A stretch of 40,042 nucleotides of DNA from an uncultured Pelagibacteraceae bacterium. Its GTDB lineage: Bacteria; Pseudomonadota; Alphaproteobacteria; Pelagibacterales; Pelagibacteraceae. The notes beneath the pieces are model-generated. The model was not told the DNA's origin. It made no database searches and saw only the letters and a program-made list of their open reading frames with translations. A program made the position numbers and the translations under genes. Below are positions 17,124 to 38,657 of the stretch, piece by piece. Every line of letters starts with the position of its first letter. The first letter of the stretch is position 1. Location: NCBI GenBank assembly GCA_902536975.1, contig CACAZG010000005.1:1-40042 (forward strand). The letters run 5' to 3'.

Positions 17124-17157
17124 AAAAGGGTGGAATTTTATTTCACCCTTTTTTTTT
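17124..17157 (+). terminator. Rho-independent terminator after RbsB-like SBP
   Basis: AAAAGGGTGgaattttatttCACCCTTTTTTTTTT: GC-containing stem plus long T run. Confidence 0.88.
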
Positions 17158-20820: not shown

Positions 20821-21795
20821 ATGAAAAAAAGTTTTAAATTATTTTTAGCTGCCGCATTTTTGGTAACTGAATTTTTCGTTGTTGCACTTCCACTTATGAT
20901 TACCTCTGCAAAAGCAGATGGACACCCAATCCAAGCAATTACTCATGCTGGTTTTGGTGGTGGAACAGACGTAACAACTAGAATGATGTTACTAAGAACT
21001 AGAAGGTATCTAAAACAAGATATGCAATTAGTTAACAAAAAAGGTGGTGGTGGAGCAGCATCAATGGATTATATGATGACTTTACCTGCAGATGGTCAAC
21101 ACACTTTAACTTGGACAACAGGTCATGCTGTTTCAATGGCATTGGGTAAAACTAAAGTTAAATTAAGTGACATGCAACCATTAGCAAGAGGAACAGATGA
21201 TCCTCAGTTATTTGTTGTAAATTGTAAAAATGAAATCAAAGACGCTAAGAAATTTATTAGTGCACAAAAATCAAAATCATTAAAATATGGCACAACTCAT
21301 GTTGGTGGTATTGATGATGTAAGTGCAATTGCATTTACAAAAAAAGGAAAATTAACTGACCCAACAATTGTTCCATACAAAGGAGTTGGTCCTATTAAAA
21401 CTAACCTAATCAAAGGAGATATTGATGTAGGTGTTTTAAACTTAGGTGAAGCAGTTACAGAAATTGAAGATGGAACATTATGTGTTTCAGTTGTTCTTGC
21501 AAGTAACAGAATGGAAAAATTAAGTAATGTTCCTACTGCTACAGAGCTTGGAATACCAGTTGTGTTATCTACTGTTAGAGGATTTGTAACAAGAAAAGGG
21601 GTTCCAGCCGACAGAAAGAAACAATTGGAAGATGCTATGATAAAAGCTATGGAGCATAAATATTTCCAGAGCTTTTTAACTGACATCGGACTTGATTCAA
21701 CTAGTGTTGTTGGAGCTGATGAGTGGGGTAAGCAAATGGAAGTGATGCTTGCAGAAATGACTGCTCAACTTAAAGCTTTGGGTTACATTAATTAG
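20821..21795 (+). CDS. Tripartite tricarboxylate transporter substrate-binding protein (TctC family)
   Basis: ORF 324 aa; signal peptide, AITHAGFGGGTDVTTRMM, GGGGAASMDYM, YKGVGPIKTNLIKGDIDVGVLNLGE; followed by TctB and TctA. Confidence 0.9.
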   Translation: MKKSFKLFLAAAFLVTEFFVVALPLMITSAKADGHPIQAITHAGFGGGTDVTTRMMLLRTRRYLKQDMQLVNKKGGGGAASMDYMMTLPADGQHTLTWTTGHAVSMALGKTKVKLSDMQPLARGTDDPQLFVVNCKNEIKDAKKFISAQKSKSLKYGTTHVGGIDDVSAIAFTKKGKLTDPTIVPYKGVGPIKTNLIKGDIDVGVLNLGEAVTEIEDGTLCVSVVLASNRMEKLSNVPTATELGIPVVLSTVRGFVTRKGVPADRKKQLEDAMIKAMEHKYFQSFLTDIGLDSTSVVGADEWGKQMEVMLAEMTAQLKALGYIN

Positions 21796-21818
21796 TCATA
21801 AGAAAGTACATTTTTTTT

Positions 21819-22325
21819 ATGAATAATGTACAAAATAAAAAAAGGGCAAACAAAAGTTTGCCCTTTTTTTTTAAAGATGAATTTAAAGTATTTTTTGTAA
21901 TAATTTTTTTTTCTACAATATTATTAATTTCCACATTTACTTTTGATAAGGTTCCACCAATTTTAAACAGAGGTATTCAGCCTGCAACTTTCCCAAAAGG
22001 ATTGTTAGTATTGATAATGTTTTTAACAACAATTATTTATTATCTATCATTCAAAAATCCCTGGAAAAAAGAAAAAAAACTTCCAAAACCATTTTTTTTA
22101 ACAATCTTAAGTTTTATTTTATTTGTAGTAATTTCTAAAACATTAGATTTTTTTTTAGCTATTTCAGTACTTTCTATATTTGTTTCTTATAATTGGGGTG
22201 AAAGGAGAGTTTTTTATTTACTACTGGTTGGAATTATATTTCCACTAGTAGTTTTTATATTTTTCGAAATGATACTGGGTCTTAGATTTCCTCCAGGAAT
22301 AATTACAAACCTTTATTACTACTAG
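21819..22325 (+). CDS. Tripartite tricarboxylate transporter small membrane subunit (TctB family)
   Basis: ORF 168 aa with four hydrophobic segments; located between TctC- and TctA-like genes. Start codon uncertain (ATG 21819 or TTG 21858). Confidence 0.83.
   Translation: MNNVQNKKRANKSLPFFFKDEFKVFFVIIFFSTILLISTFTFDKVPPILNRGIQPATFPKGLLVLIMFLTTIIYYLSFKNPWKKEKKLPKPFFLTILSFILFVVISKTLDFFLAISVLSIFVSYNWGERRVFYLLLVGIIFPLVVFIFFEMILGLRFPPGIITNLYYY
21837..21872 (+). terminator. Intrinsic terminator-like hairpin inside the tctB 5' coding region
   Basis: AAAAAAAGGGCAAAC-AAAA-GTTTGCCCTTTTTTTTT: perfect 8-bp GC-containing stem (extended by A-T pairs), 4-nt loop, 9 T run; lies in codons 7-18 of the tctB ORF. 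Confidence 0.88.
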
Positions 22326-22326
22326 T

Positions 22327-23799
22327 ATGGATAATCTTTTATTAATGATGGCGCCTTTGTTTAGTTCCAAGTTGTTAATCGTTTTACTTTTTGGAACTTT
22401 ATTTGGACTAATTTTAGGTGTTCTGCCAGGATTAGGTCCTACAACAGGTGGAGCATTAATTTTACCATTTACTATGACTTTAGACCCTCTTTCAGCAATA
22501 GTATTATTAACATCAATTTATTGTGCCGGAACATACGGTGGTGCAATCACTGCAGTTTTAATTAATACACCTGGAACTCCAGCAGCAGCAGCCACTTGTC
22601 TAGATGGTTATCCTTTAGCTCAAAAGGGAGAAGCAGGAAGAGCTTTAGGTATGGCAACAGTTTCAAGTACTGTGGGTGGAATTTTTAGTGTAATAGTTTT
22701 GGTATTTTTTGCACCTGTATTAGCTAAACTTGCCTATGAATTTGGCCAACCTGAATATTTTGCATTAGCTATTTTTGGTTTAACAATGCTTGCATCAATT
22801 GGCGAGGGAAGTCCAATTAAAAATTTAATCGCTGGCGCATTTGGAATTTTAATTTCAACTATTGGAAAAGATTTTATGACTTCAATTGATAGATTTACTT
22901 ATGGAATTAATGAACTATCGGTTGGGATTGGGTTTATACCTGTAGTAGTAGGTTTATTTGCTATAAGCGAAATGTTAACCCAGTCTACACTTCTTGATCA
23001 AGTTTTTAAAAGAGTTGCACTAAAAGCTGTAAAACTTCCATCTCTAGATGATTATAAACAAACATGGAAAACAATTCTAAGATCAAGCGGTATAGGATCT
23101 TTTATTGGTGTTTTACCGGCCGAGGGAGGAACAGTTGCATCTTTAATTGGTTATTCAGAAGCAAAAAGATTTTCTAAAGAACCAGAGGAATTTGGCAAAG
23201 GATCAATAGAGGGAATTGCTGGAGCAGAGGCTGCTAACAATGCTGCTACTGGAGGTGCAATGGTTCCAACTTTAGCCCTTGGAATTCCTGGAAGTGCTAC
23301 AACAGCAGTAATATTAACTGGTTTAATTATTCATGGTGTTAGGCCTGGTCCAGATTTATTTAGAGAACAGCCAGACTTTTTATATGGAATTTTTGGGGCC
23401 ATGTTAATAGCAAATGTTTTATTTTTTATATTTGGATTTTTTGGTGCAAAATTATTTGCTAGGATAACTCTTGTTCCTAACAAAATTTTATGGCCTATGA
23501 TATTTGCTGTATCTGTTTGTGGAACTTATTCTTTAAGTCAATCAATAATTGATGTTTGGATTATGTTATTTTTTGGTGTGCTTGGATTTTTTATGAGAAG
23601 ATTTGGTTTTTCGGTTGTACCTGTAATTATAGGATTAATTTTAGGAGAATTAGTAGAGGGAACTTTAAGACAATCTTTAGTTATATTTGATGGAAATTGG
23701 CTAATGTTCTTAACAAGACCAATTGCTTTAACATTTTTTATTTTATCTTTAATTGCATTAGCTTTTCCTTTATTAAGATCAAAAAAACAAAAAGAATAA
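22327..23799 (+). CDS. Tripartite tricarboxylate transporter large membrane subunit (TctA family)
   Basis: ORF 490 aa; GVLPGLGPTTGGALILPFT, YCAGTYGGAITAVLINTPGTPAAAATCLDGYPLA, IGVLPAEGGTVASLIGYSEAKR, GIPGSATTAV. Confidence 0.95.
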   Translation: MDNLLLMMAPLFSSKLLIVLLFGTLFGLILGVLPGLGPTTGGALILPFTMTLDPLSAIVLLTSIYCAGTYGGAITAVLINTPGTPAAAATCLDGYPLAQKGEAGRALGMATVSSTVGGIFSVIVLVFFAPVLAKLAYEFGQPEYFALAIFGLTMLASIGEGSPIKNLIAGAFGILISTIGKDFMTSIDRFTYGINELSVGIGFIPVVVGLFAISEMLTQSTLLDQVFKRVALKAVKLPSLDDYKQTWKTILRSSGIGSFIGVLPAEGGTVASLIGYSEAKRFSKEPEEFGKGSIEGIAGAEAANNAATGGAMVPTLALGIPGSATTAVILTGLIIHGVRPGPDLFREQPDFLYGIFGAMLIANVLFFIFGFFGAKLFARITLVPNKILWPMIFAVSVCGTYSLSQSIIDVWIMLFFGVLGFFMRRFGFSVVPVIIGLILGELVEGTLRQSLVIFDGNWLMFLTRPIALTFFILSLIALAFPLLRSKKQKE

Positions 23800-26897: not shown

Positions 26898-26910
26898 AAA
26901 ATAGAAATTG

Positions 26911-26944
26911 AGGCCACCTAATTTTTAGGTGGCCTTTTTTTTTA
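26911..26944 (+). terminator. Rho-independent terminator between SBP and permease genes
   Basis: AGGCCACCTAatttTTAGGTGGCCTTTTTTTTTT: strong GC-rich 10-bp stem plus T run. Confidence 0.92.
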
Positions 26945-38028: not shown

Positions 38029-38053
38029 AGAAGGGCCTGAAATAGGCCCTTCT
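38029..38053 (+). terminator. Hairpin (terminator/attenuator-like) between dctP and dctQ
   Basis: AGAAGGGCCTgaaatAGGCCCTTCT: perfect 10-bp stem; the T run follows only after an A/T spacer (tataaaatttttttt), so termination strength is uncertain. Confidence 0.75.
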
Positions 38054-38066
38054 TATAAAATTTTTT

Positions 38067-38657
38067 TTGCCTATGAGTGATAAAGAATTACAAGACAAGC
38101 AATTACAAGAGCAAAATGAAAAAGTTGCAAGTAAAGACGATTTTCCAATAAATTGGATTGATAGAATTTCATTATTTTTAAGCCACACAATTAAGTATTT
38201 AATCCCTGTTATAGTAATCGTAATGATGTATGAAATTTTTATGAGGTACGTGCTATTTAAACCAACATTATGGGCTAATGAATTATGTTTATGGTTAGCT
38301 GGTGTTTGTTATTTAGTTGGTGGAATATATGCAACAAGGCTTAGAAGTCATATCAGAATTGTCTTATTATATGACTATGTAAGTAGGCCAACTCAGCGTA
38401 TTTTTGATCTAATTAGTACTGTAATTATTGTCACTTTTGCAGCTGCCGTAATTTATGGAGGAATGGAGGATGCATATAGATCATTTATAAATTGGGAGAG
38501 ATTTGCAACTTATTGGGATCCACCAATTCCTGCAACTATGAAGCCACTCACGCTTATTTGTATATTTCTTATAGCACTACAATCAATAAATAACTTAATT
38601 ATTGACTGGAAAAATCCTAAAGAAAAACAGTACCAACCTGCCAAAGATTTAAAATAA
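38067..38657 (+). CDS. TRAP transporter small permease (DctQ family)
   Basis: ORF 196 aa; four TM segments, MRYVLFKPTLWANELCLWLAG motif. Confidence 0.92.
   Translation: MPMSDKELQDKQLQEQNEKVASKDDFPINWIDRISLFLSHTIKYLIPVIVIVMMYEIFMRYVLFKPTLWANELCLWLAGVCYLVGGIYATRLRSHIRIVLLYDYVSRPTQRIFDLISTVIIVTFAAAVIYGGMEDAYRSFINWERFATYWDPPIPATMKPLTLICIFLIALQSINNLIIDWKNPKEKQYQPAKDLK

Follow-up and report, generated by a model that had tools for sequence, protein, structure and literature searches.

A conserved probable terminator hairpin inside the first codons of tctB and an invariant inverted repeat around its start codon in SAR11 bacteria

The tctC-tctB-tctA locus

The window, i.e. the whole stretch of 40,042 nucleotides that we analysed, is a SAR11 (Pelagibacteraceae) contig; matching tctB loci, with 98–100% protein identity, came from Pelagibacteraceae single-cell genomes. 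On its forward strand lies an operon with the gene order tctC-tctB-tctA, which encodes a tripartite tricarboxylate transporter (TTT). All three genes were confirmed by Pfam. The gene tctC (20821..21795, with its stop codon TAG at 21793-21795) encodes the periplasmic solute-binding protein (SBP) of the transporter (TctC, PF03401, E 1.2e-17), tctB (21819..22325) the small membrane subunit (TctB, PF07331, E 1.7e-11, residues 27-158) and tctA (22327..23799) the large membrane subunit (TctA, PF01970, E 1.4e-158). Between 17640 and 25456, the TTT genes are found amid catabolic genes of the sugar or sugar-acid type, including members of the PdxA family, an SDR and a ROK kinase according to Pfam, as well as ribokinase-like and enolase-superfamily-like genes as judged by eye. 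In view of these neighbours, the substrate of the transporter may be a sugar acid rather than citrate.

A probable terminator hairpin within tctB codons 7-18

A hairpin, which we call P2, fills codons 7-18 of tctB (21837-21872). It consists of a perfect 15-bp stem, a 4-nt loop and a U9 tract. The 5' arm, A7-GGGCAAAC, occupies codons 7-11 (21837..21851) and is followed by the loop AAAA (21852..21855), which carries in-frame insertions of 3 nt in some orthologues. The 3' arm, GTTTGCCC-T7, spans codons 13-18 (21856..21870), and the U9 tract (21864..21872) coincides with codons 16-18 (Phe-Phe-Phe), of which the TTT codons are nearly invariant. Both arms are supported by sequence, folding and mutual compensatory changes. 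The predicted folding energy of the region is -28.9 kcal/mol, against -10.7 ± 2.6 kcal/mol in dinucleotide shuffles (z = -7.1), and none of 200 shuffles reached the same value. The perfect terminator-like hairpin that an earlier sequence-only reading had placed here thus exists exactly as described, and P2 combines a G+C-rich stem, longer than the usual minimum of 5-7 bp, with a short loop and a U-rich tract directly 3' of it, as expected of an intrinsic terminator.

The exact stem occurred in 7 of 61 genomes, once in each and every time at tctB, and the reversed stem, used as a control pattern, was absent from these 61 genomes. Rfam returned no match above the gathering threshold for the locus; the best matches, STnc320 (32.3, cut-off 50) and MicX (27.4, cut-off 75), all below gathering, are terminator-bearing sRNA families. 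As a separate observation, the T9 run at 21864-21872 within the coding sequence is a candidate site of transcriptional slippage, which could reduce the amount of functional TctB further.

Compensatory evolution of P2

Our comparison comprised 156 tctB orthologues from genus-mates with 60–100% protein identity, many of them from partial single-cell assemblies; codons were counted on the 118 unique sequences. P2 resides at the same codons and retains its paired stem core in all 156 orthologues, among which 23 distinct stem sequences were found. Two-sided changes that preserve pairing affected 5 of the 15 base pairs, or 6 of 15 if the ambiguously aligned orthologue L138 is counted. Pairing was present in 94.8% of the cells of the alignment, compared to a maximum of 93.0% over 1000 column shuffles. 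Near-identical sequences are frequent in this set, and hence the covariation evidence amounts to about six lineages rather than 156 independent cases.

On the tree, compensatory changes were assigned to at least six lineages. The ancestor of L009 and L126 exchanged A-U for G-C at one pair and G-C for A-U at another. L126, L134 and L135 each changed C-G to U-A, with an additional A-U to G-C change in L135. The pair L133/L155 changed A-U to G-C, and L094 did the same with a loop that is 3 nt longer. L138 was left out of the lineage count, since its ambiguous insertion site made its branch artefactually long. In the L009 clade and L126, the swap of two base pairs altered four residues (R>G, A>T, P>S and F>L, i.e. 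R-A-P-F to G-T-S-L); here, RNA pairing was retained while the protein changed.

Codon usage tells a similar story. Synonymous diversity averaged 0.015 over codons 7-18 versus 0.408 over codons 19-65, where the lowest 12-codon window still had a value of 0.27. Third positions in the P2 codons are frozen far below the expectation for the same amino acids: TTT was used at codon 17 in 118 of 118 and at codon 18 in 116 of 118 unique sequences. A run of U8-U9 directly 3' of the stem is present in nearly all orthologues, with TTT at codons 16-18 except for the stem change in the L009 clade and a few divergent orthologues. One of these is L138, the most divergent orthologue (60% identity), which kept the hairpin with its U-tract shortened to TTTATC. 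We also considered P2 as a terminator on the antisense strand. The conserved U-tract of the sense strand speaks against this, as does the variable 5' A-run (TCT, CAA, GAA or TTA at codon 7).

The sequence-only reading had proposed that one stretch of bases acts both as an RNA terminator and as tctB code, and had recommended a search for compensatory changes in the N-terminal codons of relatives. The changes above, some of them at the expense of the protein and all with the frame kept, argue for this double use.

The start codon of tctB

The start codon ATG (21819..21821) lies 18 nt upstream of the P2 stem; no other in-frame start precedes the translated hairpin. Upstream of this ATG, the spacing to a conserved motif is 4, 5, 6, 7, 8, 10 or 12 nt and is not bound to triplets. 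Downstream of it, the register is fixed and free of stop codons, and the only length change is the insertion of 3 nt in the P2 loop (in L008, L094 and L141, and in L138 by inferred register). Since these insertions measure exactly 3 nt, the frame that crosses the hairpin must be translated. A start within the hairpin at TTG 21858 had been suggested as an alternative. This codon occurs in 117 of 118 unique sequences and is absent in L138; its conservation elsewhere is explained by its position in the 3' arm of the P2 stem. None of the orthologues has another start codon before the P2 loop. Together with the triplet insertions and the loss of TTG in L138, this sequence evidence identifies ATG 21819 as the start of tctB, with MNNVQNKKRANKSLPFFF as the predicted N-terminus of TctB, and disqualifies TTG 21858.

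In a related SAR11 family (L011 and L178-L187), TctB starts about 17 codons further in and the hairpin is intergenic. Compared to this intergenic-hairpin family (L011, L012, L014 and L178-L187), the first ~17 codons of tctB are an extension, which suggests that the frame studied here was extended upstream through the terminator. A Shine-Dalgarno-like motif was found upstream of tctB in none of the 156 orthologues. We give little weight to its absence as a special feature of tctB, because only 71 of 392 other genes in this group (18%) carry one.

An inverted repeat around the start codon

A second element had escaped the sequence-only reading. The start codon of tctB is enclosed by the inverted repeat GTACATT-N(9-17)-AATGTAC, which we call P1, and which is invariant save for one wobble. 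Its 5' arm GTACATT (21806..21812) is identical in 156 of 156 orthologues, at a pairwise diversity of 0.49–0.55 in the noncoding flanks. The 3' arm AATGTAC (21825..21831) forms part of tctB codons 3-5 and varies only by an A>G change in one clade (GATGTAC), which gives a G-U pair. Codon constraints are evident here as well: codon 4 (Val) is GTA in 118 of 118 unique sequences, and codon 5 has C as its first base throughout, be it for Gln, Arg, His or, rarely, Leu. The predicted fold has a mean pairing probability of 0.99 and an energy of -5 to -8 kcal/mol, and places the AUG in the loop.

Covariation between the arms of P1 was absent among the 156 orthologues. Pairing of P1 is therefore predicted rather than proven, and pairing alone and direct recognition of the sequence are equally likely. 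A search of 61 genomes for the motif returned just two matches outside tctB (in G019 and G025), which argues against a repeated regulon motif. A dimeric DNA operator is disfavoured too, as the loop between GTACAT and ATGTAC varies from 11 to 19 nt. We further considered a translational-coupling element. P1 begins 7-15 nt past the tctC stop codon across the orthologues (10 nt in the window), so that a ribosome terminating on tctC would overlap P1. In addition, the invariant AUGUAC of P1 contains an out-of-frame AUG, the frame of which crosses the hairpin (21826-21900) and usually comprises 24-30 codons in most orthologues. This AUG could act as a decoy start. Of all parts of the locus, P1 is the one with the least explanation and the greatest interest.

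Terminators behind SBP genes in SAR11

As background, we sampled 400 kb (410 ORFs) of the complete related genome G106, taken as stretches of this one genome, with a custom terminator caller. The sample has a G+C content of 0.29 and a coding fraction of ~97%. Strong perfect terminators were few, and all except the tctB one were located between genes. According to Pfam, the genes upstream of them encode SBPs of five families, RecA, a rhodopsin and an ammonium transporter. For the SBP families searched across G106, 7 of the 10 genes within these 400 kb had a strong terminator directly 3', compared to 5 of the 400 other ORFs (Fisher P = 2.5e-10). In the window, each of the four SBP genes has a hairpin 3' of it, ahead of the next transporter or operon gene (17124-17152, 21837-21872, 26910-26936 and 38030-38053). 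The other three of these genes encode SBPs of the Peripla_BP_4, SBP_bac_1 and DctP families, and two of their hairpins carry T9.

Other SAR11 operons arrange terminator and start codon in different ways. In a second TctB family (27 loci such as L219-L247), the GTG start lies inside the terminator stem (GCAGTGA...TCACTGC followed by U6-7). This terminator lies ~20-60 nt ahead of the region matched by Pfam TctB, and is itself preceded by a small hairpin that covaries and sits at the stop codon of the SBP gene. In TRAP operons (about L257-L276), the U-tract at the dctP-dctQ junction abuts the ATG of dctQ with 0-1 nt in between. For dctQ in the window (38067-38657), the mechanical ORF start is TTG 38067, and the in-frame ATG 38073 just past T8 is the likelier start. 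At two further loci (L188 and L189), the TctB start overlaps the SBP stop (TAATG), and a GCGCCCA...TGGGCGC hairpin without a good U-tract is found in early tctB codons. Most SAR11 operons of the intergenic-hairpin family lack a U-tract.

Comparison with known systems

A close parallel is provided by ABC importers of Clostridia, where a stem-loop is likewise located directly 3' of the SBP gene at the 5' end of the transporter operon (Wu et al., 2022; PMC9045158). In cellulolytic Clostridia, these stem-loops were proposed to yield high SBP and low translocator transcript levels, and terminators 3' of SBP genes were tested there as a cause of SBP transcript excess (PMC9045158). The order in our locus (tctC, then hairpin, then tctB and tctA) is the same. 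However, the Clostridial stem-loops are intergenic (>50 bp), belong to ABC operons of Firmicutes and have U-poor tracts, whereas the present hairpin belongs to a TTT operon of Alphaproteobacteria, lies within codons 7-18 of the next gene in 156 of 156 orthologues, and has a U9 tract and a start-codon hairpin.

In attenuators of the pyrBI type, as in tctB, translation of an ORF passes through an intrinsic terminator soon after the start. In those systems the ORF is a leader; tctB is a structural gene, for which we found no leader peptide, sensing codons or antiterminator fold. Construct W48 of Li et al. (2015; PMC4824070), with terminator tR2 30 bp past the AUG, resembles our locus in being tricistronic, in that its terminator lies within 100 bp of the start of the downstream ORF, and in that its terminated mRNA is non-stop for this ORF. 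W48 is, however, synthetic and has no start-codon hairpin; silencing of the start, as carried out there, is the effect that we suggest for P1 in nature. Hairpins are also among the candidate structured RNAs of 'Ca. Pelagibacter ubique', another SAR11 bacterium (Meyer et al., 2009; PMC2704228). One of these, the rhtB element, has a U-tract 3' of it in about half of the examples and sometimes lies near liv transporter genes (PMC2704228). Since that study searched long intergenic regions, an element in coding sequence was outside its scope, and its text contains no match to the tctB locus.

Proposed mechanism

The structure, its compensatory conservation, the reading frame, the conservation of P1 and the association with SBP genes, as supported by the sequences compared, form the basis of our interpretation. 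We consider it probable that P2 works as an intrinsic terminator and partially attenuates transcription within the operon, at the boundary between the SBP and permease genes, with P1 damping or coupling the initiation of tctB. From this we infer that termination takes place in vivo, with an efficiency such that most transcripts from the tctC promoter would end in the U9 tract, giving SBP mRNA that is protected by its 3' hairpin. The remaining minority would read through into tctBA, and SBP would consequently outnumber the permease. Models predict that SBP excess sets the transport affinity of oligotrophs such as SAR11 (PMC8168909). The tctB frame would have been extended upstream through the terminator, with the same bases encoding a tolerant, polar-to-Phe-rich cytoplasmic N-terminus.

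In E. coli, terminators work even when they lie within 100 bp of the start of a coding region, ribosomes fail to catch RNA polymerase within this distance, and a terminator 30 bp past the AUG lost only ~10% of its efficiency to translation (PMC4824070). A ribosome at an upstream stop codon ceases to interfere with the terminator at >27 nt in the E. coli system; the distance from the tctC stop to the P2 stem is 41 nt, past this limit. The small effect of translation and the 41-nt distance favour a constitutive partial terminator over a switch in which ribosomes melt the hairpin.

In the same E. coli construct, the terminated mRNA was non-stop, which halved upstream expression, and silencing of the start codon restored it (PMC4824070). 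This suggests a role for P1: by holding the tctB AUG in its loop, it may keep ribosomes off the non-stop tctB start and so damp initiation on terminated tctC mRNA. Alternatively or additionally, P1 might couple tctB initiation to ribosomes that finish tctC. The layouts with GTG in the stem and with AUG after the U-tract would likewise keep ribosomes off the start on terminated SBP mRNA.

Alternative explanations

A serious alternative, although we rate it below an even chance, is streamlining alone: an ordinary SBP terminator would have drifted into code for want of intergenic space, and its overlap with tctB would have no function of its own. It coincides with our preferred explanation in that the terminator function is real and differs in that the overlap is neutral. 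The coding fraction of ~97% in the sampled 400 kb is in line with it, as are the other operons that compress terminator and start (dctQ ATG at the U-tract in L258-L276; GTG in the stem in L219-L247). Yet, among the SBP-linked terminators in these 400 kb only that of tctB lies inside a coding region, and drift does not account for the invariant P1 repeat at the start.

More speculatively, P1 and P2 might form a compound RNA. A protein or trans-acting RNA would then recognise P1 sequence-specifically and set tctB initiation, initiation would modulate or protect against the in-gene terminator, and SAR11 SBP operons in general would hide or exclude the downstream start on terminated mRNA, which avoids non-stop translation. 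We regard this extended version as doubtful.

Another explanation is that the hairpin is mainly an mRNA-stability element, which blocks 3'-to-5' decay of processed tctC mRNA with little real termination. Hairpins protect transcripts from 3'-to-5' decay in the cases of malE and puf. A literature search on mRNA stability of periplasmic binding proteins gave no match. L138, which keeps the hairpin without the U-tract, and the paralogous operons with stable hairpins and poor U-tracts (L178-L186, L218, L221 and others) are in favour of such a role. The U8-U9 conserved in nearly all orthologues, the nearly invariant TTT codons 16-18 and the U-rich terminators of several other SAR11 SBP genes speak against it. 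Decay protection as the main function is rather unlikely. Still, given L138 and the family with U-poor hairpins, part of the action of P2 may be to shield SBP mRNA from decay.

Even less probable is a translation-controlled attenuator, in which ribosomes that initiate on tctB or reinitiate from tctC melt the hairpin, so that readthrough senses translation. The start 18 nt before the stem, the ORF spanning the stem in 156 of 156 orthologues, and a P1 at the start at a conserved 7-15 nt from the tctC stop, which suggests controlled initiation, are what such an attenuator would look like, and the principle exists in pyrBI-type leaders. Conversely, the loss of only ~10% efficiency in E. coli (PMC4824070) argues against it. 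We found no antiterminator fold that excludes P2: P1 (21806-21831) and P2 (21837-21870) are disjoint and are predicted to form together. The lack of a Shine-Dalgarno-like motif at tctB also speaks against it, with the reservation that such motifs are uncommon in the group. The sequence-only reading had envisaged translation-coupled control of transporter stoichiometry through ribosomes from 21819. Its stoichiometric part fits the genomic context and the precedent in Clostridia (PMC9045158), while melting of the hairpin by these ribosomes found no support and is disfavoured by the published E. coli tests. Finally, a chance palindrome in a low-complexity, Lys/Phe-rich N-terminus, conceivable in a genome that is rich in AT and in runs of A and T (the sampled relative has a G+C content of 0.29), is ruled out by the covariation in at least six lineages, together with the z of -7.1 and the frozen third positions.

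Implications for SAR11

An in-operon terminator 3' of an SBP gene is already known as a principle. New is the conserved dual coding of a terminator and the start-codon hairpin P1; in the literature searched and in Rfam, we found neither an in-code placement with compensatory evolution nor an invariant start-codon hairpin. As a terminator that is conserved by compensatory mutation within a protein N-terminus, P2 indicates that protein sequence can yield to an RNA signal. A further implication is that annotation and terminator surveys restricted to intergenic regions will miss such elements. The start-codon hairpin P1 offers a discrete, testable feature.

SAR11 bacteria rank among the most abundant cells on Earth, need binding protein in large excess over permease, and have few known regulators. 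Terminators of the kind described here would offer a simple, hard-wired explanation for the SBP:permease ratios across SAR11 transporter operons.
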